64,000 nt of DNA from Rubrivivax sp. (GTDB lineage Bacteria > Pseudomonadota > Gammaproteobacteria > Burkholderiales > Burkholderiaceae_C). The notes beneath the pieces were generated by a model. The model did not search any database. It saw only the letters and a list, made by a program, of their open reading frames with translations, and had not been told where the DNA came from. Position numbers and translations under genes: made by a program. This document shows, piece after piece, positions 4,805-44,694 of this stretch; position 1 is the stretch's first letter; each line of letters opens with the position of its first letter. The DNA lies in contig JAHCKS010000006.1 in the NCBI GenBank assembly GCA_026125665.1, positions 45,733 to 109,732 of the forward strand, read 5' to 3'.

Positions 4805-5622
4805 GCCCCCCGATCACCGCGGTCACGAGCGCCGCTGCCGCGGGCAGCGCCGGCGCGCCGCTGCCGCACATCACCGCCGTCACCAGCGGCAAGGGCGGGG
4901 TGGGCAAGACCTTCGTCTGCGCCAACCTGGCCGCGGCGCTGGCCCGCACCGGCAGGCGCGTGCTCGTGCTGGACGCCGACCTGGGCCTGGCGAACCTCGA
5001 CGTGGTGCTGAACCTCTACCCGAAGATCACGCTGCACGACGTGTTCACCGGCAAGGCGAACCTCGGCGACGCGGTGCTGCCGGCGCCAGGCGGCTTCTCG
5101 GTGCTGCTCGCGGGCTCGGGCATGGTCGAGTACTCGCGCATGACGCCCGAGGTGCGCGACCAGCTGCAGGCGCTCGTGGCCGAGGTGGCGCCGAAGTTCG
5201 ACCACGTGCTGCTCGACACCGGCGCCGGCATCTCCGACGTCGTGCTCTACACCGTGTCGCTGGCCGCCGAGGTGCTGATCGTCGCGACGCCCGAGCCGAC
5301 CTCGCTCACCGACGCCTACGCCACGATCAAGGTGCTGGCCACCACGCAGGGCCGCCGGCGGCTGCACCTGCTCGTCAACCAGGTGCGCCGGCCGGGCGAA
5401 GGCCGCGGCGTGCGCGCGCAGCTGCAGCAGGTGGTGGACCGCTACGTCAACCCGACGCTCGAGCCGGGCTCGGGCGCCGTGCGGCTGGAGCTCGTCGGCG
5501 AGGTCCCGGCCGACCCGGCGGTGCGCGAAGCGGTGCAGCGCCGCCAGCTGCTGCTCGAGACGATGCCGGGCACGGCGGCGGCGATGGCACTGGTCAACGC
5601 CGCGGTCAGAATGCCGGCGTGA
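4801..5622 (+). CDS. MinD/ParA-family ATPase, FlhG (FleN/YlxH)-like
   Basis: A 273-residue deviant-Walker ATPase. After a short Ala/Ser-rich leader it carries GKGGVGKT (30-37), the DADLGLANLDVVL switch I block, LLDTGAGIS (switch II) and VATPEPTSLTDAYA. These are typical of FlhG, which sets flagellar number by antagonising FlhF or FlhC/FleQ. The nearby chemotaxis genes support a motility link, but flhF is not visible here, so a more general MinD-like role remains possible. The FlhG-type N-terminal DQAxxLR helix that activates FlhF is not obvious. It overlaps both neighbouring genes by four bases and so sits inside an operon with a diguanylate cyclase and a hemoglobin. Confidence 0.85.
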   Translation: MSPPITAVTSAAAAGSAGAPLPHITAVTSGKGGVGKTFVCANLAAALARTGRRVLVLDADLGLANLDVVLNLYPKITLHDVFTGKANLGDAVLPAPGGFSVLLAGSGMVEYSRMTPEVRDQLQALVAEVAPKFDHVLLDTGAGISDVVLYTVSLAAEVLIVATPEPTSLTDAYATIKVLATTQGRRRLHLLVNQVRRPGEGRGVRAQLQQVVDRYVNPTLEPGSGAVRLELVGEVPADPAVREAVQRRQLLLETMPGTAAAMALVNAAVRMPA

Positions 5623-15532: not shown

Positions 15533-15567
15533 GCGTAACGGGCGCGTAACGGGTCCGTCCTTACTGT
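15533..15567 (+). promoter_or_regulatory. SARP-type operator and promoter A (before the large lipoprotein gene)
   Basis: Two nearly identical 11-bp units, GCGTAACGGGC (15533-15543) and GCGTAACGGGT (15544-15554), lie head to tail with no gap; the GTAACG cores are exactly 11 bp apart. TACTGT at 15562-15567 is a -10-like hexamer 10 bp after the second core. SARP regulators are known to bind direct repeats in an 11-bp register next to the -10 in place of a -35. Matching sites occur at 20486-20517 (minus strand) and 20615-20646, around the SARP-type gene. Predicted leader is about 70 nt. Confidence 0.65.
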
Positions 15568-15645
15568 CCGCTGCATCGGTCGCGATCGTGACCGAGGGTG
15601 CCGCAGGGGCCTGCGGCCTCGAGGCTGGATCGGAGGGGACGGGCC

Positions 15646-18121
15646 ATGATTGGGTTGACATTCAAGCGCACGGGGCGCACCGGGAGGACGGGTAGCCGCT
15701 GGACGATGTGCCTGGCGGCGCTGCTGCTGGCGAGCTGCGGTGGGGGGGAGAGGGGAAGAAGGGGCAGGCAGCGGCGGCGGCAACGATCCGACCCGCGAGA
15801 AGGTCGTCCGCCTGGAGCTCGTGCAGCAGGGCGTGCTTCTGACCGGCGCCGGCCAGGAGCGGCAGCTCACGGTGCGTGCGCTCAACGGCAGCGGTGCACA
15901 GATCGACGCGAACGTCGTCTGGACATCGTCGGCGCCGGAGCGCATCAGTGTCGACGCAACGGGCAAGGTGCGCGCCGTCACGCCGCTCGGCTCGGCGCAG
16001 ATCACGGCCGAGTCGGGCGGCGTGCGGTCGCGCCCGCTGCTGGTGATGACGGCCGAGCTGCACCCCGGAACGCTGCAGGTGACGGACGCCAACGTGGTGC
16101 GGATCGGCGAGCCGTTGACCAGCGGCCCGCCGCTGCCGCGGGCGGGCATCGAGTACGACGTGTGGCTGTCTGGCGTTGCGCCCCCGCAGCCGGGCACCGT
16201 CGTGCTCGCCGTCGAGGACTCGCCCGTCGCCGGGCGCGTGGTCGAGGCGGCGATCGACGGCAACCTCGTTCGGGTGCGCCTGCGCCTGCTCGACATGCCC
16301 GACGTGCTCGCGCGCTACGACATCGACTGGGTCATCGACGTGACGGCGTTCGACATGGTGTACGACCCCGCGGCGGCTGGCTTCAGCACACGACGGGATG
16401 AGAAGCCGCTGTCGCACGAGCGGCGCCTGGACTCCACCGAGGTGCGCGTGCCCGACTGGAGCTTTCCGCCGGGCAGCCCGAGCCCGCTGTGCCGGGCGAG
16501 TGCCGCGGCCAAGCTGACGACGCAGCCGACGAAGGTCAAGGTCGGCGGCAGCCCGAAGATCGTCTATCGCGACAGCCACCTGCACGTCGGCTTGCCCTCC
16601 GGGACGTTCAGGCTCGCGCTGGTGGGCGACTTCAAGATCGAGACGCAGGTCGGCCTCGTTGCCGATGCGGGCCTGAGCGGGACGGTGGAGTGCGAGCTGC
16701 CGCCCAAGGCGCTCGGCATCCCGATCCCGATTGCGGGGCCGTTCGGCTTGTCGATCCCGGTGAGCGTGGGGCTCAAGGTGAAAGGCGAAGTCGAGCTCGC
16801 CAAGCTCGACATCAGCCTCAGCGGCGAGAACGGCGCCAGTTTCGAGCTCGGCGTCGACTGCAAGCCCGCGCAGCCCTGCACGCTGCTGGACACCGCCACG
16901 CCGATCAACAAGTTCGAGCCGCATCTCGAGGTGCACGGCGCCAACATCGACGGCATGAGGATCAAGCTCGGCGCGCACCTCTACTTTCACACCGGGCTCA
17001 ACGTCGTGCTGCTGGGCAGGCTGGTCACCTTCGAGGCCGTCGACGTGAAGGTGGGGCCCAAGCAGACGGCCGATTTCGGCACGCTGAAGCGGCAGGCCGA
17101 CGACAGGCCCTACGCGTCGAACTACAAGCTCTTCTTCCTGACCGAGATCGCGCCGGGCAAGAGTGCGAAGAAGGCCATCGAGTTCTTCACCGGCGTCGAG
17201 CGCGACGAGTTCTCGATGACCTTGCCCATCGAGGCGGACATCTCCGAGTCGCCCAACGGCACGTGGAGCGTGGACAAGACGAACCCGGTGCCCAACCGCG
17301 ACACGGTGCTGTTCGACATCCGCGTCAAGCCGCAAAGCAAAGACTACTTCCTGCTCGGCTACAACATCAAGCGCATCGAGATCTACCGCAAGCACGAGTC
17401 GGCGCCCGAGTACGAGCTCGTGCAGGCGCTGCCTGCGACGCAGCCGCAGGTGGACTTCCAGTGGCGATGGGAACCCACGACGGCTGACGCGGGCCGCAAC
17501 GACTTCGCCGTCTTCGCGGTGAGCAACTTCGAGGTCGTGCCGCTCGAGATCGGCACGGTGGCGAGCGTGCAGGTGGGCTGCATCGGCGGCATCGGCACGG
17601 AACAGATGCGTGCCCTGGCGGCGGGCGGCGTTTGCAAGGAGGAGTGGGTCGGCAGCGCAAGCGGCGAGATCTTCGGCGCGGTGAAGTTCAACATGCCTGC
17701 TCCGTTCCTTTGGGAACAGGACCTGACGACGGTCCTTGCCCCGGGCATCAGCGCGTTGCGACCGGCGAAGACGGGCAACCTGGTGACGGTCGAGTTCACG
17801 CTCTGGAAGGACCTCGGCTGCACCGTCACGCCCGAGCGCTTCGACGGCTCGAGCTTCTCGGCGGCGTCGCTGATGACCGTCGATCGCAACTTCGACCCGC
17901 CCAAGTACGCATGGGGCCTGCAGATCGACGCCGAGCTGACGATTTCGTGCCCGGACGGCGGGCCGGGCACGCTGCCCGGGCGCGTGATCGCGATCGACGG
18001 CCTCGGCGAGCTCACCGAACGGGGCACGCGCATGCAAGGCATCACGAGCAACCAGTTCGGGCGTTCCAGCTACGACTTCCGCCTGAAGGAGCCGGACCCG
18101 CCATCGCCGCAGGCGCGGTAG
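15646..18121 (+). CDS. Large exported lipoprotein with BIG2-like N-terminal domain (apparent frameshift after the lipobox)
   Basis: A GGAGGGGA ribosome site (15632-15639) precedes ATG 15646, which encodes MIGLTFKRTG and a lipoprotein signal ending ALLLASCGGG. The frame then breaks at a run of seven G's (15742-15748); dropping one G joins it to the 793-codon frame that continues to 18121 (a GTG at 15740 is the only start of that frame alone). The body begins with a Gly-rich linker, a BIG2-like domain (RLELVQQGVLLTGAGQ ... VVWTSSAPERISVDATGKVRAVTPLG), then about 650 residues of beta-rich sequence I do not recognise, with several Cys pairs and a glycine/proline-rich PKALGIPIPIAGPFGLSIP stretch. 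It probably sits on the cell surface or periplasm. Confidence 0.7.
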
Positions 18122-18156
18122 TCGGTTGATGCAGGCGTTGCCGGAGGGACCTCAGG

Positions 18157-18960
18157 ATGAAGCCGAAAGCATGTTTCCTGGCGATGTTGGCAGTGGCCGG
18201 TGCAGCAGCGGCGGCCGATGCATGGGCGCAGGACCCGCCGCCGCCCGCCGGCCGCTGGCAATCGCCCGCCAGCGCGACCTACACCAACCCCGCGCTCACG
18301 GGCGCCGAGCTCTACCTCAGTATCGACGTCGCGCCGGACGGCAGCTTTCGCGGCACATGGGGGCGGTACTTCTGCACCGCTTTCCCCGGCGCCTACGGCA
18401 TTGCCATCTACTCGTGCAGCCGCACCGGTGGCAACCGCGTCTCCGGCAGGTTCGGCCCGGGCCGGCAGGGCGCGATCGATCTCGATACGCTCGGCCGCAG
18501 CCCCTTCACCTGGGCCGCACCCTCCGGCGACGAGCTCGCGATCGACCTGCCGAGGACCTGGCAGGGCGGCGGTGACGCGGTCCTGTACCGCGCGCGCATG
18601 ACGCGCAACGGCAAGCCGCGGCCCGCGGCTTCCGCGGCAGCTCCGGGCGAAGCAGGACCGCTGCTGTCCGCCGTTGCGCTGTACCGCGAGTTCAAGCAGG
18701 ACGAGCGGTCCGCCCTCGCACGGCACCAAGGCAAGACCCTCGTGCTCGAGGGGCGGCGCGGAAGCCTGATCGCGCTCAGCGACGGCGGCGCGGCCGTTCA
18801 CGTGCCCGACGGATTCCAGAGCCGCGCCCTGGTTCTCTACTTCCGCGACTTCAAGCAGGTCAGCGGCATCGCCGAAGGCGCGCAGTTCCGCTTCAGGTGC
18901 AGGGTGTTGGACTTCGCGTACCAGTACGTGCAGTTGGAAGACTGCTCGATCGTGCGCTGA
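18157..18960 (+). CDS. Exported protein with C-terminal OB-fold (tRNA_anti-like) domain
   Basis: A 267-residue protein with a Sec signal peptide (MKPKACFLAMLAVAGAAAAADAWAQ). Residues about 30-150 form a beta-rich domain with four cysteines (YFCTAF, YSCSRTGG) of unknown family. Residues about 172-265 resemble the tRNA_anti-like OB-fold family: LYREFKQDERSALARHQGKTLVLEGRRG, VHVPDG and GAQFRFRCRVLDFAYQYVQLEDCSI. In exported proteins this fold usually acts as a ligand-binding module and not on tRNA. It starts 35 bp after the lipoprotein stop on the same strand, with GGAGGG ahead, and is likely co-transcribed from the SARP-type promoter A. Confidence 0.75.
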   Translation: MKPKACFLAMLAVAGAAAAADAWAQDPPPPAGRWQSPASATYTNPALTGAELYLSIDVAPDGSFRGTWGRYFCTAFPGAYGIAIYSCSRTGGNRVSGRFGPGRQGAIDLDTLGRSPFTWAAPSGDELAIDLPRTWQGGGDAVLYRARMTRNGKPRPAASAAAPGEAGPLLSAVALYREFKQDERSALARHQGKTLVLEGRRGSLIALSDGGAAVHVPDGFQSRALVLYFRDFKQVSGIAEGAQFRFRCRVLDFAYQYVQLEDCSIVR

Positions 18961-19053
18961 TGCGGCGTGCTGCCTGGCGACGGCACGACGAACGCGAAGA
19001 CGTCGGCCTGTGCCATCAGGCGCCTTGCGCGATGGCCTCCTGCGCCAAGGTCC

Positions 19054-20400
19054 CTACGGAACCAGCTTGATGCCCAAGGCATAGCCGGTGATCCTCGCCG
19101 GCGAACTGATGACGTGGTCCTTCGAAGCCACGCTGGCCCCGCCCAGGTCGGCGCGTGGCTCGAGCTTCCACAGCAGGTTGCCGGCCGCCGTCTGATTGCC
19201 GGCCTGGTCGTAGCGGCGCCAGTCGACCGCCGCACCGATGCCAGTCAGCGCAAATTCGCCCCGCAGCCCGCCTACGTCGACGGCCGGGTGCGCGGCAATG
19301 CCCGAGGTCGCCGAGACGACTCTCGCCCGCACGTTGTAGGTGGTGCCTCCCACGCTGACCGTGGGCGGCAGCGCGATCACCTGCGTCGCTATGGAGCCCG
19401 GCGCCGCGACGATGTGCTCCTTGGACTCGGACCGCCAGCCTCTGACATTCAGGATGACGAAATGGCACTCGAACCCGCCGTTGGGAGCCGGGTCGCACTG
19501 CGTGTATCCATCGACCAGCGGCGCGCTCACCGTGGTGAATTGACCGCCGCCACACCCGCTGGTCGGGCACGCGATGAAGCCGCCGCCGACCACGACCCTG
19601 CCGGACGGCGCCGAGACCTGGTCGGCCGGCTGCCCCAGGGAGCCTTGGCCGACGGAAGACGAGCTGGCAGTCGCATTCCCGTGACCGTTGGGGTTGACGA
19701 GCAGTCGCAGCTCGTGCGACGTCATCCCTTCGATCCGCAGCCCGATCACGAACACGGTCGGGCGATGCGGCTGCGCGGCGCCGCCTCCCTCGGCTGTCAG
19801 CGCAAACCATTCCTGGGCGTGGTTCTGGTATCCAAAGAGCCAGGACCCAGAGATCAGCGCGCCGATCGGAGAGTCCGTGCCCATCGCGCCACCGCCGACA
19901 ACGACGAAGCCGGCCGGTACGTAAACATGAACGTTCCCTACGTGGTTGGTCGCGGTTTGCAGCTTCCACACGCCGGTGGTCGCGAGCCCCGAAGAGTCCG
20001 TCGAAAACCCGGTCAGCACCGCGCCTGGCGTCCCATGGCCATAGGGGGGTATGGCGCCGAACGGAGTGACGGTGCACGAACGCGTGACCGTGATGCCGTT
20101 GTCGACGAACGTGATCGTTGCCGACATCGGGGCGGTGCCCGCACCCTCGAAGTGCCTGAAAGTGCCAGGGCTTTGCAGGCCGACATCGAGCGGAGACAGC
20201 TTCCTCTCCGTGAGGCCCCTTGCGGAGATCGTGCAGGTGCCGGTGCCATCGATGGCGCATCCGAAGATGGCGGTGGGCACATAACCGGTGCCCTGGGGCT
20301 GCGGCGGTCCTTCGAAGCAGATCTGGTGCATGCGCGCGGCAGCCCCGGCGCAGGCGACGCCGAGCGCGATTCCGGCGGCCAGCTGTGCGAGTCTTGACAT
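19054..20400 (-). CDS. Secreted protein with VVVGGG repeats, unknown function
   Basis: A 448-residue protein with a signal peptide (MSRLAQLAAGIALGVACAGAAA) and a GGAGG ribosome site seven bases before its ATG. The mature protein is Gly/Val/Ser-rich and beta-strand-rich. It contains two similar units, VPAGFVVVGGGAMGT and APSGRVVVGGGFIACP, and several Cys pairs (CFEG, FGCAIDGTGTC, CPTSGCGGG, QCDP, ECHF). Units of the form PAGxVVxGGGA occur in diverse secreted bacterial proteins, but no function follows. It is divergent from the SARP-type regulator gene and carries its own SARP-type operator. Convergent with the OB-fold gene, leaving a 93-bp gap. Confidence 0.75.
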   Translation of the reverse strand: MSRLAQLAAGIALGVACAGAAARMHQICFEGPPQPQGTGYVPTAIFGCAIDGTGTCTISARGLTERKLSPLDVGLQSPGTFRHFEGAGTAPMSATITFVDNGITVTRSCTVTPFGAIPPYGHGTPGAVLTGFSTDSSGLATTGVWKLQTATNHVGNVHVYVPAGFVVVGGGAMGTDSPIGALISGSWLFGYQNHAQEWFALTAEGGGAAQPHRPTVFVIGLRIEGMTSHELRLLVNPNGHGNATASSSSVGQGSLGQPADQVSAPSGRVVVGGGFIACPTSGCGGGQFTTVSAPLVDGYTQCDPAPNGGFECHFVILNVRGWRSESKEHIVAAPGSIATQVIALPPTVSVGGTTYNVRARVVSATSGIAAHPAVDVGGLRGEFALTGIGAAVDWRRYDQAGNQTAAGNLLWKLEPRADLGGASVASKDHVISSPARITGYALGIKLVP

Positions 20401-20485
20401 GATCCGATCCTCCATGTGGCGAGCACCGACGTTCGCCGGTGCGCTCAACGCCCCGACCACCCGGCACGACGCCGGATGCGCCGCG

Positions 20486-20518
20486 GTTGTATGAAGGGGG
20501 CGTTACGAAGGCGTTATG
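20486..20518 (-). promoter_or_regulatory. SARP-type operator and promoter B (before the secreted-protein gene)
   Basis: Read on the minus strand: ATAACG (20517-20512) and GTAACG (20506-20501), both followed by CC, spaced exactly 11 bp, then TACAAC (20491-20486) 9 bp after the second core. It points toward the gene starting at 20400 and predicts a leader of about 80 nt. Layout and sequence match sites A and C. This and site C lie in the 365-bp divergent gap 20401-20765, which otherwise holds only a short possible upstream ORF. Confidence 0.65.
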
Positions 20519-20612
20519 TGCGGCGAACGCTGGATGGCGAGCCGCTCGCTGCGCATCGGCGCCTTGCGCGCTTCAGGCGGCTGCGCGTGCGGAGAGGTTC
20601 CGGCCATGCCGC

Positions 20613-20646
20613 GCATAACGGCGACGTAACGGCGCGGCCCTACACC
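20613..20646 (+). promoter_or_regulatory. SARP-type operator and promoter C (before the SARP-type regulator gene)
   Basis: ATAACG (20615-20620) and GTAACG (20626-20631), both followed by GCG, are 11 bp apart on the plus strand; TACACC (20641-20646) follows 9 bp after the second core. It points at the regulator gene, so autoregulation is predicted. The -10 is the weakest of the three sites (three of six consensus bases), in keeping with a promoter that needs an activator. Confidence 0.6.
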
Positions 20647-20694: not shown

Positions 20695-20778
20695 ATGATT
20701 GCCATCGAACGAGGGGCCAGCACCGCTCCCGGCTTCGCCGCCATCGAGCCGCAGGAAACGGGTCCATGCCGGGGTTGA
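20695..20778 (+). other. Possible upstream ORF overlapping the regulator start
   Basis: ATG at 20695 opens a 27-codon frame (begins MIAIERGAS) whose TGA at 20776-20778 lies 10-12 bases past the first ATG of the regulator (20766). If translated, terminating ribosomes would sit on the regulator start and could couple or repress its translation. No strong ribosome site precedes it. This is positional evidence only. Confidence 0.25.
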
Positions 20779-23700
20779 CGCGCCGAGCGCCATCGCTTCA
20801 GATGCCGGCCGGTGGCGCGACGGGGGTTGACGCGATGGCGATGGCACCGCTTCCCGACGCAGGTGCGCAAGGCACTGCGGCGCTGCGGCTCGTGCTCGGC
20901 GGCCCGGTCGCAGCGATTTGTCGCAGCGATGGCACCCGCGTGCCGTTGGCCCGCCTCGACGCGGCGCTGCTGGCCGTGCTCGCGATCGAGGGCCCCTCGT
21001 CGCGGCAGCGGCTGCTGCAGCTCCTGGGCAGCGACGAAGACGACCCGGAGCACGCACGCAACGCGCTGCGCCAGCGGCTCTTTCGGCTGCGGCGCGCCGT
21101 CGGCACCGATCTCGTGAGCGGCGTGGAGCCCTTGTCGTTGGCGGCCGGCGTCACGCCCGACACCCACCTCGATGCGGACGTCGACGCCGACACCGCCGCC
21201 GGCGCGGGCGTGCACGAGCGCGCCGGCGAGCTGCTCGCCGCCCACGACTACGCCGACTTTCCGGCCTTCGAGCGCTGGCTCGAAGAGCAGCGCCGCGTGC
21301 TCGCCCGGCGCCGGCGCGAGCGCGACCTGGCACGCATCGAGACCTGCGAGCGCGAAGCCCGCTACGGCGAAGGCGCCGAGCTGGCCGAGCGCTGCGTCGC
21401 CGCCGACCCGCTCGACGAGCCCGCCGTGCAGCGACTGATGCGGCTGCGCTACCTGGCCGGGCAGCGGGCTGCGGCAGTGGCCGCATTCGAGCGCTTCGCC
21501 AGTGCCCTGCGCGCCGAGGACGGCGGCGCGCCGGCGCGCGCAACCACGGAGCTCCTGGCGACGATCCGCGCGGCCGACGCACCGGTGCCAGTTCGGCGGC
21601 GCGAGATCCCGGCCAGCGTGTTGCGCCCGCCGCGGCTCGTCGGCCGCGACGCCGAGCTGCGCGCGTTGTCCGCTGCGTGGTCGGGCGAGCGCATCTTCTG
21701 GCTGCTGGGCGAAGCGGGCCTGGGCAAGACGCGGCTCGTCGCCGAGTTCGTCGGCGAGGGCGAAGCGGCACTGGTCGCGCCAGCGCGGCCGGGCGACGCC
21801 GGCGTGCCCTACGCGAGCCTCGGCCGCACACTGCGTGCGCTGCTCGAACGCCGGCCCGCATTGTTGGAGCGTGCCGAGCGGGCCGACCTGGCCCGCGTGC
21901 TGCCGGAGCTGCAGGTGCAAGTGCTCGCGGCGGCGGCCATCGCCCCGGCCGCGGTGCTGCAACGAGCGATCCGCTCCCTGCTGCGGGCCGCGCGGGACGA
22001 AGGGCTTGCCGCGCTGGTCGTCGACGACCTGCACTTTGCCGACTCCGCGAGCCTCGAGATGCTGCAGGCGCTGGTCGGCGACGAGACGCTGGCGGCGCTG
22101 CGCTGGGGCTTCGTGTCACGGCCGGCCGAGGGCCAGCCGGCCGTCGAGGCGTTGCGCGCCGCGCTCGAGGAAATGCATCGCATCGAGGTGCTCACACTGG
22201 CGCCTCTGAGCGAAGTGCAGATGGCCGAGCTGGTCGCCTCGCTCGGCGTGCCCGGCCTCGATGCGGCCCGGCTCGCGCCGGCGCTCGCGCGCCACACCGG
22301 CGGCAACCCGATGTACGCGCTGGAGACGATCAAGCACTTGGTCGTCAGTGGCGAGCAGGGGCTCGAAGCGAAGCTGCCGCGGCCGGCCAGCGTGGGCCAG
22401 CTGATCGAGCGGCGGCTGCGCGCGCTGACACCGGCGGCGTTGCAGCTGACACGCGTGGCCGCCGTCGCAGGCACCGACTTCACGATCGAGCTGGCCGAAA
22501 GCGTGCTTGGCACCCGCGCACTCGCGCTCGCCGACGCCTGGCGCGAGCTGGAATCGGCGCAGGTGCTGCGCGGCAATGCCTTCGCGCACGACCTCGTGCA
22601 CGAGGCGGCGCTGGCGAGCGTGCCGGCACCGATCGCGCAGCACACGCACGGCGCGGTGGCGGCGTGGCTCGAGGCGCACGGCGGCGAGCCGGCGCGCGTC
22701 GCCGCGCACTGGCTCGACGCGGCCCAGCCGCAACGGGCGCTCGGCGCGCTGCACGCGGCGGCCGAGGCCGCCAAGCGCGCGATGCGGCGCAAGGAGGAGG
22801 CCACGTTCCTCGCGCGCGCCGCGCAGATCGAGAGCGATGCCGGTGATCACGATGCGGCGTTCTCGTCGTGGCGCGGGGTGATCGAAGCGATCTGGGTCGT
22901 CGACCTCCACGCGGTCGATGCGGCGATGTTCGACCGACTCGACGCTGCTGCGGCAACGCAGGGGCAGCAGGCAGCGGCGCAAGCATTCCGCGCAAACTGG
23001 CTCTACGAGATCGGCGACCTGGCGCAAGCCGGCCGCCTGTGCCGCTCGGCGATCGACCTCGCCGACGCCGCCGGCGACGAGGCAACGGGGGCGGCCGCGC
23101 GCGTGAGGCTCGCCGAACTGCTCGATCACGAAGGCGACTCGCCGGCCGCCCTTGCGCTGCTGCAGCCGTTGCTGGCATGGGCCGCCGAGCGCGCCGGTGA
23201 CATCGAACGCGCCAACTTCTACTCGCAATTCGCGATCGTGCTGGACAACAGCTCGCGCGTGCGCGAAGCCCGCGTCTACCACCAGCGTTCGATCGACGGC
23301 TACCGGCGATGCGGCGACTGGGGCAATGTCGTATTGCAGATGGTCAACCTCTCGATCAGCTGGACCAGCGCCGGCCACATGGCGCACGCACTCGATGTGC
23401 TGCGCGAAGCCAGCCAGCTCGCGGCGGCGCACGACGAGGCGCGCGGCGCCGCCTCCGGGCTGCCGATGCAGATGTTCAAGTGCCTGCGCGAAGGCGGCCG
23501 CTACGAAGAGGCGCTGCGCTGGGTCGAGCCCGCCCTGGCAGCGGTTTCGGGCCGGTTCACGATGCTGCTGCACACCAATGTCGCTTGCGCGTGGATCCAC
23601 CTCGGCCAGCATGCGCGGGCGCAGCGCGAGCTCGACACCCCATCGGCTGAAGAGCCACCCGATTGGATGCGCGCCAACGCGCTGCAGATGCGCGGCCGCC

Positions 23701-24233
23701 TGAAGCTGGCGCTCGGCCAGCACCCCGGCACGCTCTTCGACGATGCGCTGCGCCTCGTGCTCGAGAACGAGGAACTGCATCTGTCGCGCGCGCTGATCAC
23801 GCTCGACCGGGCGTTGACGATCGAGCCGGCCGAGGCGCTGAGCGCTGCACGCCGCGTCATCGCCGAGGGAGGACGGCTCGACCTCGCGGGCGTCGTGCTC
23901 GCCGGCCACGTGCGCGCCGCCCGTTTCGCCGTGGACGCCGGGCTCGGCGCCGACGCCGAGTCGCACGCGCGCGCGGCGCTGTCGGTGGGCGAGGACGTGT
24001 CGCCTTACAACTTGTACCCCGCCGAGCGCTGGCTGAACGCATGGCGCGCCTTCCGCCTGGCCGGCCGCGCGGCCGACGCGGCCGCGGCGCTGGCGCGCGG
24101 CGTCGAGTGGGTGCACGCGACCTCGCGCGAGCACGTGCCCGAGCCGTTCCGCGACAGCTTCGCGCGCGCCAACGCGGTGAACCAGGAACTGCTGCGTGCG
24201 GCGGCCGCCGCCGCCGTCGCTGCGCACCGTTGA
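20766..24233 (+). CDS. SARP-family transcriptional regulator: BTAD domain fused to AAA ATPase and TPR-like region
   Basis: A protein of up to 1155 residues. A winged-helix DNA-binding domain (about 40-120: LARLDAALLAVLAIEGPSSR, ARNALRQRLFRLRRAVG) is followed by a bacterial transcriptional activator domain (about 145-265, YADFPAFERWLEEQRR). Next is an AAA ATPase with Walker A GEAGLGKT (315-322) and Walker B ALVVDDLHFAD (about 422-432), then about 600 residues of helical repeats resembling TPRs. This is the AfsR-like large SARP layout, better known from actinobacteria. The first ATG (20766) has AGGAAACGG upstream; internal ATGs at 20799 and 20835 are alternatives. Divergent from a secreted-protein gene, with SARP-type repeats in front of both. 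The signal sensed is unknown. Confidence 0.9.
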   Translation: MPGLTRRAPSLQMPAGGATGVDAMAMAPLPDAGAQGTAALRLVLGGPVAAICRSDGTRVPLARLDAALLAVLAIEGPSSRQRLLQLLGSDEDDPEHARNALRQRLFRLRRAVGTDLVSGVEPLSLAAGVTPDTHLDADVDADTAAGAGVHERAGELLAAHDYADFPAFERWLEEQRRVLARRRRERDLARIETCEREARYGEGAELAERCVAADPLDEPAVQRLMRLRYLAGQRAAAVAAFERFASALRAEDGGAPARATTELLATIRAADAPVPVRRREIPASVLRPPRLVGRDAELRALSAAWSGERIFWLLGEAGLGKTRLVAEFVGEGEAALVAPARPGDAGVPYASLGRTLRALLERRPALLERAERADLARVLPELQVQVLAAAAIAPAAVLQRAIRSLLRAARDEGLAALVVDDLHFADSASLEMLQALVGDETLAALRWGFVSRPAEGQPAVEALRAALEEMHRIEVLTLAPLSEVQMAELVASLGVPGLDAARLAPALARHTGGNPMYALETIKHLVVSGEQGLEAKLPRPASVGQLIERRLRALTPAALQLTRVAAVAGTDFTIELAESVLGTRALALADAWRELESAQVLRGNAFAHDLVHEAALASVPAPIAQHTHGAVAAWLEAHGGEPARVAAHWLDAAQPQRALGALHAAAEAAKRAMRRKEEATFLARAAQIESDAGDHDAAFSSWRGVIEAIWVVDLHAVDAAMFDRLDAAAATQGQQAAAQAFRANWLYEIGDLAQAGRLCRSAIDLADAAGDEATGAAARVRLAELLDHEGDSPAALALLQPLLAWAAERAGDIERANFYSQFAIVLDNSSRVREARVYHQRSIDGYRRCGDWGNVVLQMVNLSISWTSAGHMAHALDVLREASQLAAAHDEARGAASGLPMQMFKCLREGGRYEEALRWVEPALAAVSGRFTMLLHTNVACAWIHLGQHARAQRELDTPSAEEPPDWMRANALQMRGRLKLALGQHPGTLFDDALRLVLENEELHLSRALITLDRALTIEPAEALSAARRVIAEGGRLDLAGVVLAGHVRAARFAVDAGLGADAESHARAALSVGEDVSPYNLYPAERWLNAWRAFRLAGRAADAAAALARGVEWVHATSREHVPEPFRDSFARANAVNQELLRAAAAAAVAAHR

Positions 24234-42783: not shown

Positions 42784-44694
42784 CTATCGCGCTCGCCTGG
42801 GCAGCACCTCGCTCGTCAACTCCCGCTTGGCCAGCTCGTTTCCGAGTTGGTGGCGCAGGAAGGCGTTGCCGGTGTAGCGGCGCACGCTGAGGTAGTAGGT
42901 TTGCTCGACGTACTTCACCGCGTCGACGTAGGCGCCGAACACCTCATCGTCGCAGCTGAAGCGCTCGTAGTTGACGATCGAGTGTACGCGCCGCTTCAGC
43001 GGCCCGAGCAGGCGGTCGACCGCCGCGACGATGGCGCGTACGTCGTCGTCGGTCTTCACGCGCATGCCGGCGTAGTTCATGTACACGGTGTTGGTGGCCG
43101 CGTCGTAGCTCAGGCGGTCATCGATGCGGATGTCCAGCAGCCGCTCGCGCAAGCCCATCGGTGCGGTGCAGAAGATCGCCGCCTCCATCGCCCGCGCACC
43201 CTCCTTGGCGGGCTGGAACGGCAGCTTGGCGAGGATGTCGCGCTCGGGGTCGACACCGGGCGCCACTTCGGCCAGCACCAGGCCCTGGGCCCCGAGCCGG
43301 AACACCGCGCGCTCGGTGACGTAGAGCACCTCCTGGCCTCGCCGGCGCGCCTCGTCGGCGCTGAAGGTCACCTGGCTCACCTGCGGCACGAACTTGGCAA
43401 AGCGCCCTTCCTGCTCGATGGCGAGGCGCCCGTCGTGCACTGCCACCTTCAGCCCGCCCGAGGTGAAGGTGCCGACGAAAACCAGCGTCTTCGCGTTCTG
43501 GCTGATGTTGATGAAGCCGCCGCAGCCGGGCATGCGCTTGCCGAAGAGGCTGGCGTTGACGTTGCCCGCCGCGTCGCACTCGCCGAAGCCGAGGAAGGCG
43601 GCGTCCAGGCCGCCGCCGTCGATGAAGTCGAACTCCGTGCAGTGGTCGATCAGCGCCTGGTAGTTGACGGCGGCGCCGAAGTCCAGCCCGCTCATCGGCA
43701 CGCCGCCCATGACGCCGGGGTCGACCGTCATCGTCAGCAGGTCGGCGATGCGCTCCTCGGCCGCCACCAGCGGCACCTGGTCGGGCACCGAGCCGACACC
43801 GACGTTGATGACGCTGTTCGGCGAAAGCTCCAGCACCGCGCGGCGGGCGATGATCTTGCGCTCGTCCAGCGTCACCGCCTTGGGTGCCTTCATCGGCACA
43901 CGGAACTCGCCGGCGAAGGCCGGGTTGTACTGCGTGCCGTAGGTCTGCATGTGGTGCTGCGGCTCGGCGAGCACGATGCAGTCCACCAGCACGCCGGGCA
44001 CCTGGACGCGGCGCGGGTCGAGCGCGCCTTCGGCGGCGGCGCGCTCGACCTGTGCGAGCACGATGCCGCCGGAGTTGCGCGCGGCGATCGCCAGCTGCAG
44101 GTTCTCCAGCGCGAGCGACTCACGCTCGAAGGTGATGTTGCCGTCGGGATCTGCGGTGGACCCGCGGATGAGTGCGACATGGATCTTGAACGCCTTGAAG
44201 AAGAGGCAGGTCTCGCCGCCGAGCTCCACGCGCTGCACCAGTTCCTCGGTGGTGGCGGCGTTCATGCGCCCACCGCCGAGGCGCGGATCGACGAAGGTGC
44301 CCAGGCCCACCCGCGTCAGGGTGCCCGGCCGGCCAGCGCCGATGTCCCGGTACAGGTTCGTGATCACCCCTTCGGGCCAGTTGTAGGCCTCGACGCGGCC
44401 TTCGACGGCGAGTGCCTCGAGCTTGGGCGTGAGGCCGTAGTGGCCACCGATCGTGCGCCGCACCAGCCCGGCATGGGCCAAGCGGTTGAGGCCGCGCTCC
44501 TGCATGTCGCCCTGGCCGCCGGCGAACATCAGCGTCAGATCGCGCGGTGTGCCGCTGTCGAGAAAGCGCTTCTCCAGCGCCACGAACAACTGGTCAGGCG
44601 TGCCGTTGCCCCCGTAGCCGGTCGAGGCGACGACGTCGCCGTCGTGCACGACGGCCACTGCGTCCTCGGGCTCGACGAATTTCTTCAGTCGCAT
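42784..44694 (-). CDS. Propionate CoA-transferase-type acyl-CoA:acetate/3-ketoacid CoA-transferase
   Basis: A 636-residue fused alpha-beta family I CoA-transferase (Pct/YdiF-like), longer than most (about 520) because of a C-terminal extension with VHSIVNYERFSCDDEVFGAYVDAV. Family blocks are ASTGYGGNGTPDQLF, MSGLDFGAAVNYQALID, FDFIDGGGLDAAFLGFGECDAAGNVNASLFG and GGFINISQNAKTLVFVGTF. The position expected to hold the thioester-forming glutamate reads MTVDPGVMGG with Asp325. It would move CoA between short acyl groups. The gene is divergent from the YiiX-like gene, with TATGAT at 44787-44792 between them as a possible -10 for the latter. Confidence 0.9.
   Translation of the reverse strand: MRLKKFVEPEDAVAVVHDGDVVASTGYGGNGTPDQLFVALEKRFLDSGTPRDLTLMFAGGQGDMQERGLNRLAHAGLVRRTIGGHYGLTPKLEALAVEGRVEAYNWPEGVITNLYRDIGAGRPGTLTRVGLGTFVDPRLGGGRMNAATTEELVQRVELGGETCLFFKAFKIHVALIRGSTADPDGNITFERESLALENLQLAIAARNSGGIVLAQVERAAAEGALDPRRVQVPGVLVDCIVLAEPQHHMQTYGTQYNPAFAGEFRVPMKAPKAVTLDERKIIARRAVLELSPNSVINVGVGSVPDQVPLVAAEERIADLLTMTVDPGVMGGVPMSGLDFGAAVNYQALIDHCTEFDFIDGGGLDAAFLGFGECDAAGNVNASLFGKRMPGCGGFINISQNAKTLVFVGTFTSGGLKVAVHDGRLAIEQEGRFAKFVPQVSQVTFSADEARRRGQEVLYVTERAVFRLGAQGLVLAEVAPGVDPERDILAKLPFQPAKEGARAMEAAIFCTAPMGLRERLLDIRIDDRLSYDAATNTVYMNYAGMRVKTDDDVRAIVAAVDRLLGPLKRRVHSIVNYERFSCDDEVFGAYVDAVKYVEQTYYLSVRRYTGNAFLRHQLGNELAKRELTSEVLPRRAR

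Follow-up and report, generated by a model that had tools for sequence, protein, structure and literature searches.

AfsR of Streptomyces coelicolor, among the closest described systems to the locus reported here, is a large SARP in which an N-terminal OmpR-type DNA-binding domain and a BTAD domain are followed by an NTPase and a TPR part (PMC10936776; this and the other papers below are cited from excerpts). A 2024 review describes SARPs as exclusive to actinobacteria (PMC10972967), and proteobacterial matches have been doubted as typical members of the family (PMC7040171). Here we describe a stretch of 64,000 nucleotides (nt) from Rubrivivax sp. (Burkholderiaceae_C; assembly GCA_026125665.1, contig JAHCKS010000006.1, positions 45,733 to 109,732 of the forward strand), referred to below as the window, in which three promoters carry a direct repeat of RTAACG close to a gene for a BTAD-type regulator. 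Judged from sequence, these repeats are very probably SARP-type operator-promoters of the regulator encoded at 20766-24233, which is predicted to control itself and two neighbouring units.

The regulator has the domain order of AfsR, with an NTPase that is AAA_16 by Pfam, and the window operators resemble the afs box, in which two 11-bp direct repeats lie over the place of the -35 element (PMC10936776). The rule given there for SARPs is one of direct repeats 11 or 22 bp apart with the last 8 bp from the -10. The side-by-side AfsR dimer also touches sigma region 4 and the core polymerase; its R92 is in contact with T-38, whose counterpart in the downstream repeat is T-27 (PMC10936776). The core differs, being RTAACG here and CGTT(T/C)A in AfsR (PMC10972967), and Q103 stands where AfsR has T88. 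Also unlike AfsR, the targets here are neighbouring genes, often for exported proteins, and the relatives belong to Burkholderiales and not to Actinobacteria. In PimR and other SARP-LAL proteins a SARP domain is fused to a LAL-like ATPase with no C-terminal helix-turn-helix, as in our regulator, and the PimR heptamers with their 4-bp spacers form 11-bp units, the register seen in the window; PimR differs in its CGGCAAG heptamers, in having three of these in its main operator, in acting on polyene clusters and in an operator that is not placed over the -35 (PMC5930380). EmbR of Mycobacterium tuberculosis has the same fold in its SARP domain and an FHA domain instead of the AAA and TPR parts. 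Within the proteobacteria, HilA of Salmonella has an OmpR-type DNA-binding domain and is said to work through directly repeated hexamers close to the -35; it is not known to have an AAA part, its core is different and its targets are type III secretion genes.

The elements of the three promoters and the regulator gene are as follows.

15535..15551, plus strand: operator 1, GTAACG-N5-GTAACG with cores at 15535 and 15546, an exact 11-bp direct repeat
15562..15567, plus strand: putative -10 of promoter 1, TACTGT, 10 bp past the second core
20501..20517, minus strand: operator 2, ATAACG (20517)-N5-GTAACG (20506), an exact 11-bp direct repeat
20486..20491, minus strand: putative -10 of promoter 2, TACAAC, 9 bp past the second core, fitting the consensus of relatives
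20615..20631, plus strand: operator 3, ATAACG (20615)-N5-GTAACG (20626), exact and divergent from operator 2
20641..20646, plus strand: putative -10 of promoter 3, TACACC, 9 bp past the second core
20766..24233, plus strand: regulator of 1155 amino acids (aa), SARP-like OmpR-type DNA-binding domain, BTAD, AAA_16 ATPase and TPR-like C-terminus; an alternative start at 20802 is possible

A preliminary description of this DNA, made by eye, had given six RTAACG cores followed by TAC hexamers 10, 9 and 9 bp past the second cores and had found no further pair in the window. The coordinates and strands of all six cores proved exact, the hexamers stand at those distances, and a motif search over the 64 kb returned no other exact pair. 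Operator 1 lies ahead of the gene 15740-18121, operators 2 and 3 lie back to back between the minus-strand gene 19054-20400 and the regulator gene, and all three exact pairs are no more than 5.3 kb from the regulator start. Under a dinucleotide model 0.0006 exact pairs are expected in the window, giving a probability of about 4e-11 for three or more. The RTAACG word as such is not over-represented (7 occurrences, 9 expected) and six of the seven occurrences fall inside the three pairs. Allowing two mismatches gave five matches where 2.5 were expected; three are the exact pairs, a fourth is the first pair in its complement and the fifth lies at 44348. A scan of the whole genome had also been proposed, and in the assembly (268 contigs, 6,275,751 bases) the exact pattern occurs three times, all in this region, with one occurrence of the reversed control. 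With up to one mismatch TAACG-N6-TAACG has 14 matches (three exact, all here) and the reversed control 47, so that only the exact copies stand out. As the assembly is 88.6% complete, further operator sites may be missing from it.

That a BTAD-type regulator gene lies beside the repeats was borne out by Pfam, which reports BTAD at 3.3e-07 and AAA_16 at 1.8e-15, both above cut-off, and TPR_12 at 0.079, below it. A profile built from 45 N-termini (the regulator and its homologues) matches AfsR at 1.3e-14 over positions 4-260 and EmbR at 1.4e-11; three designed TPR proteins outscore both, through the TPR-like half of BTAD. With a 20-sequence full-length profile the best match in the PDB is again AfsR, its best stretch (686-969) lying in the TPR part. 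The predicted structure has a mean predicted local distance difference test (pLDDT) score of 90, and all six Foldseek matches at E<=0.001 are chains of AfsR or EmbR, with template modelling (TM) scores of 0.56-0.61 on the query. Aligned by profile, the DNA-contact residues R92 and R94 of AfsR are kept as R107 and R109, K95 is replaced by R110 and T88 by Q103.

When set against the traits of the SARP family, the regulator therefore shows, by profile and fold match, a winged helix followed by BTAD, and it has the C-terminal half of a large SARP, with the ATPase above cut-off and a TPR part that is weak in Pfam and carried by the full-length match to AfsR. The promoters show SARP geometry, with an exact 11-bp register and a 3' repeat 7-8 bp from the -10; counted as heptamers from the T, the gaps in the window are 8, 7 and 7 bp. 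An antibiotic cluster and an actinobacterial host are absent, the nearest named relatives being Burkholderiales (among the best 80 of 407 loci) and the targets being exported proteins or proteins without known function. The antibiotic-cluster setting is a trait of the SARP members that have been studied and not of the mechanism. On sequence, fold and promoter geometry we regard the operator set as real, as belonging to the BTAD regulator class and as SARP-like; its host, its core and its targets set it apart from the SARPs studied so far.

In order to assess conservation we surveyed 399 genomes of the same family at E<=1e-30, scoring the two best candidates per genome, and found regulator homologues in 54. 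The comparison set comprised 84 loci, made up of 83 fetched regions around homologue matches and one more. With no gene calls applied, the tally of RTAACG pairs in these loci is 21 at the 11-bp spacing (a figure in which one site appears twice because loci overlap) and one at 33 bp, with none at any other spacing from 5 to 40 bp. After overlaps were masked and the window was added with its own copies, TAACG pairs at spacings of 6-30 bp number 36 at 11 bp (three of them from the window), two at 9 bp and two at 18 bp, and pairs followed by CTA 8-10 nt on number 22 at 11 bp (one from the window) and none at other spacings. For YRAC pairs with CTA, 43 of the 46 at 11 bp are intergenic (one from the window), compared with zero to two intergenic pairs at each other spacing from 6 to 22 bp. 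The 50 TAAC-N7-TAAC elements, which come from 38 loci including the window, have a TA 10 nt (29 elements) or 9 nt (9 elements) past the second TAACG, equal to heptamer gaps of 8 and 7 bp. All 51 element rows (one site listed twice) are intergenic as placed by a simple gene caller; in ten the gene that follows encodes a regulator, and in many of the rest its product looks exported. One promoter (L136:11814-11851) holds three TAAC cores in 11-bp register, as the main operator of PimR holds three heptamers, and one locus (L143:911-7647) contains a tandem pair of BTAD-ATPase regulator genes overlapping by 4 bp.

Versions of the element with TGACG and CAACG are found beside other regulators. For 35 of the 87 regulators (25 TAAC, 7 TGACG and 3 CAACG) a strict pair of a single class is found no farther than about 450 bp from one end or the other, compared with 17, 5 and 2 matches respectively in 2660 random windows from the same loci. 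Ahead of a distant homologue of the window gene 15740-18121 (L122:5629-7458, 26% identity) stands an element, CGACG-N6-TAACG with CTA, at 5378, some 250 bp from the matched stretch. Lack of conservation before orthologous genes had been set beforehand as one way in which the idea could fail, and the outcome was favourable: the element does recur beside homologues in many genomes, with the 11-bp register and the distance to a -10-like hexamer retained, though the regulon behind it turns over. This comparison, together with the N-terminal match to AfsR, supports the earlier reading of the repeats as predicted SARP-type operators of the neighbouring BTAD regulator.

On a tree of 71 N-termini, operator class changes six times over 47 labelled rows; in 500 shuffles the number of changes averaged 13.4 and never fell below 9. 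Class was assigned from the entire locus rather than from the regulator's own promoter alone, and 24 rows were left out, 20 without a class and four mixed. Operator class thus tracks the tree of the DNA-binding domain. We considered an Asn before LRQ as a specificity residue (10 of 13 regulators with TGACG, 3 of 31 with TAACG and a readable residue) and kept it as a lead only, since there are too few independent pairs (two or three on supported branches, with median p of 1 and 0.5 in two versions of the comparison). Recognition helices of the form R[RQ]ALRQQ (L072, L086, L099 and L122) go with mixed elements in which CGACG or TGACG is followed by TAACG, and those of near relatives with RRNLRQQ (L094, L100 and L110) go with TGACG twice. 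A contact of Gln103 with adenine, suggested by the alignment with T88 of AfsR, is not claimed because in Meiothermus one regulator that has LRRE at this position (L191) begins 43 bp past a TAACA/TGACG pair.

At the level of whole genomes, the pattern TAACGN6TAACGN8-10CTA occurs as 23 copies in 18 of 200 family genomes, compared with one copy each at 10-bp and 12-bp spacing. The full element is present in 15 of the 25 genomes with a regulator homologue and in 3 of the 175 without (Fisher 1.6e-13), and RTAACG pairs in 17 of 25 and 24 of 175. The 73 TAACGN6TAACG sites in 30 of the 54 regulator-bearing genomes include 26 within 5 kb of a homologue, where 0.34 are expected. The control for these searches was a reversed pattern with the word GCAAT, which has its own background frequency, and its totals are hand sums; as that frequency differs from that of the forward word, we relied on the spacing controls and on nearness to regulators instead. 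Genome-wide counts alone were rejected as evidence, forward totals not being above reversed ones (73 and 109; 23 and 32).

A number of observations weigh against our interpretation. The reversed pattern outnumbers the forward one among the 73 sites (109), and in the searches at 11-, 12- and 10-bp spacing it occurs 32, 85 and 37 times, above the forward counts and not following the spacing. Forty-seven of the 73 sites do not lie within 5 kb of a homologue and may be chance, sites of other paralogues or scattered targets, and 11 far RTAACG sites in regulator-bearing genomes have no homologue within the surroundings fetched. No strict pair lies within about 450 bp of 52 of the 87 regulators, some with ends cut by contig borders; several have one farther away. 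In L069, whose regulator is the closest (64% identity across the alignment), no element is found within about 450 bp of the regulator, and the single element of the locus is about 3.9 kb upstream before a lipoprotein gene. Within the window, operator 3 (20615) is the one element that fits the strict form TAACGN6TAACGN8-10CTA. In the protein, Pfam does not report Trans_reg_C, and W74, the tryptophan in the helix-turn-helix loop of AfsR, is not kept. The autoregulation proposed earlier is consistent with the operator before the regulator's own gene in the window; the L069 regulator is without one, so autoregulation is not conserved everywhere.

As OmpR-type winged helices in general go with direct repeats of 11 bp, and PhoB-type proteins also bind such repeats about one turn upstream of the -10, a different OmpR/PhoB-type regulator encoded elsewhere might read the sites, the BTAD gene being merely one of its targets. 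The AfsR site in Streptomyces is likewise recognised by PhoP (PMC10972967). We think this improbable, given the association of the full element with genomes that have a homologue (15 of 25 and 3 of 175), the clustering of sites at the regulator gene and the change of operator class with the regulator's own DNA-binding domain. The assembly has seven BTAD matches, the regulator at 20766-24233 being the sole one at 1e-30 when two candidates were scored. No TAACG, TGACG or CAACG pair of the same kind was found at the loci of the other six, some of which are cut by contig ends. Mixed YRACG pairs do occur in these loci, for two of which open frames were listed, as do two CGACG pairs; by eye, none of them is followed by CTA 8-10 nt on.

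If the BTAD regulator reads the repeats, two protomers would occupy the two RTAACG cores next to each other, the cores would stand in for the -35 element, and the regulator would hold RNA polymerase on the TAC -10 hexamer. It would thereby control its own gene, the divergent gene 19054-20400 for a putatively secreted protein and the unit 15740-18960, with the AAA and TPR part presumably controlling its activity. In the three promoters the T of the second core precedes the start of the -10 by 15, 14 and 14 nt and, if the -10 is assumed to start at -12, would by analogy take the place of the AfsR-contacted T-27. Binding by the regulator, and activation rather than repression, are what we infer from sequence and analogy. 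Activation is taken as likely because, by eye, none of the three promoters shows an evident -35 and the known SARPs with such a layout are activators. Were the regulator to bind the sites and repress all three promoters as an autorepressed unit, overlap with the -35 position would fit, most repressors binding there (PMC7040171); we find this distinctly improbable with promoters that lack an evident -35, and with known SARPs of this geometry acting as activators and bound AfsR contacting sigma and the core polymerase (PMC10936776). A near-fixed distance to a -10-like hexamer would also be expected if the TAACG repeats were part of a promoter for a special sigma factor and not an activator site, which is very hard to square with a duplicated core in strict 11-bp register and with classes that follow the tree of the DNA-binding domain, both of which fit a dimeric activator. 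Chance repeats in GC-rich DNA, for which the near-expected two-mismatch count might speak, are to our minds practically excluded by the probability of three exact pairs and the spacing controls in other genomes, conservation having already refuted them.

The predicted targets in the window are the following.

15740..18121, plus strand: unit 1, first gene, a large protein with a weak Big_2 immunoglobulin-like (Ig-like) match below cut-off
18157..18960, plus strand: unit 1, second gene, 267 aa, 35 bp after the first, signal-like N-terminus (by eye)
19054..20400, minus strand: unit 2, 448 aa, signal-like N-terminus (by eye)

The frame 15740-18121 has no start of its own (15646-15760 examined). 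A signal peptide with a lipobox (LLLASC) can be read from an ATG at 15646 in another frame, which joins 15740-18121 at a G-rich run, and the break stems either from a phase-variable tract or from a sequencing error carried into the assembly. The product of 18157-18960 has no Pfam match and that of 19054-20400 no Pfam or NCBIfam match. Past operator 3, an open frame of 27 codons (20695-20778) starts ahead of the regulator gene and runs over its ATG at 20766; by eye, the context of the start of this short frame is similar to the one at 15646. Control of at least one unit for exported proteins is the best reading of the window.

Across the compared loci, the first gene behind the element has a lipobox in 17 of 48 cases, compared with 48 of 780 other genes from the same loci (p near 1e-8), and is exported-looking in 33 of 48, compared with 211 of 780 (p near 1e-8); the signal test is crude and both groups of genes were allowed a choice among start codons. 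Pfam searches of nine chosen targets gave PEP-CTERM in four (L103, just below cut-off, L128, L131 and L136), ZU5 in two and RCC1 repeats in two, with other matches to Ig, NHL, DUF642 or PD40. The class of PEP-CTERM proteins has been tied to RpoN and PrsK/PrsR, and the control described in the cited excerpt is of the RpoN type only (PMC9850573).

Sites away from a regulator were also looked at. Among 12 sites in other genomes one (L162) has a homologue adjoining, and among 30 short pattern loci (L004-L033) a homologue was found in two. Some elements away from a regulator (L267, L268, L269 and L279) stand before signal-peptide genes by eye and others do not; L267 and L268 come from genomes without a detected homologue.

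Beyond the family, a single-protein query of the contigs of named genomes gave no match and an alignment query was used instead. Its best 80 of 407 loci include Burkholderiales metagenome-assembled genomes (Rubrivivax, Aquincola and others), Meiothermus hypogaeus, Trueperaceae and many more distant ones. A looser element ([CT]TA) in these 80 loci shows a weaker excess, with 14 intergenic cases at 11 bp and zero to five elsewhere. In six genomes TAACGN6TAACG and its reverse number 16:6 in Meiothermus and 6:1, 2:0, 4:0, 3:9 and 2:1 in the others. The Meiothermus hypogaeus genome has 14 BTAD matches, and in 14 of its 16 sites (L287-L300) a TA stands exactly 10 nt past the second core, most sites lying shortly before an open frame; the 16 sites are a candidate dispersed regulon in Deinococcota. 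Judged by titles, opening lines of abstracts and excerpts, the open-licence literature searched contained no description of SARP operators in Burkholderiales or Meiothermus. What appears to be new is a non-actinobacterial SARP-like branch with its own YRACG operator, also present in Meiothermus.

A type of control that has been reported only from antibiotic-making actinobacteria thus probably works elsewhere too, here on genes for exported proteins. More tentatively, and with somewhat more doubt than belief, we suggest that TAACG, TGACG and CAACG repeats at 11 bp with a -10 about 10 nt further on may form a single promoter class of ancient origin that SARP-like BTAD-ATPase regulators read in Proteobacteria, in Deinococcota and probably in further phyla, the main output of which outside the actinobacteria would be exported proteins such as lipoproteins and PEP-CTERM proteins rather than antibiotics, with one set of recognition-helix residues choosing the core. 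If SARP domains do come with conserved operators of SARP spacing in both Burkholderiales and Meiothermus, this promoter mechanism would be old and widespread. The sequence rule, approximately YRACG-N6-YRACG-N8/9-CTA, lets the regulons of unannotated BTAD regulators be read from genomes, and the targets hint that surface proteins, those of the PEP-CTERM class among them, are under a second, little-known level of control.

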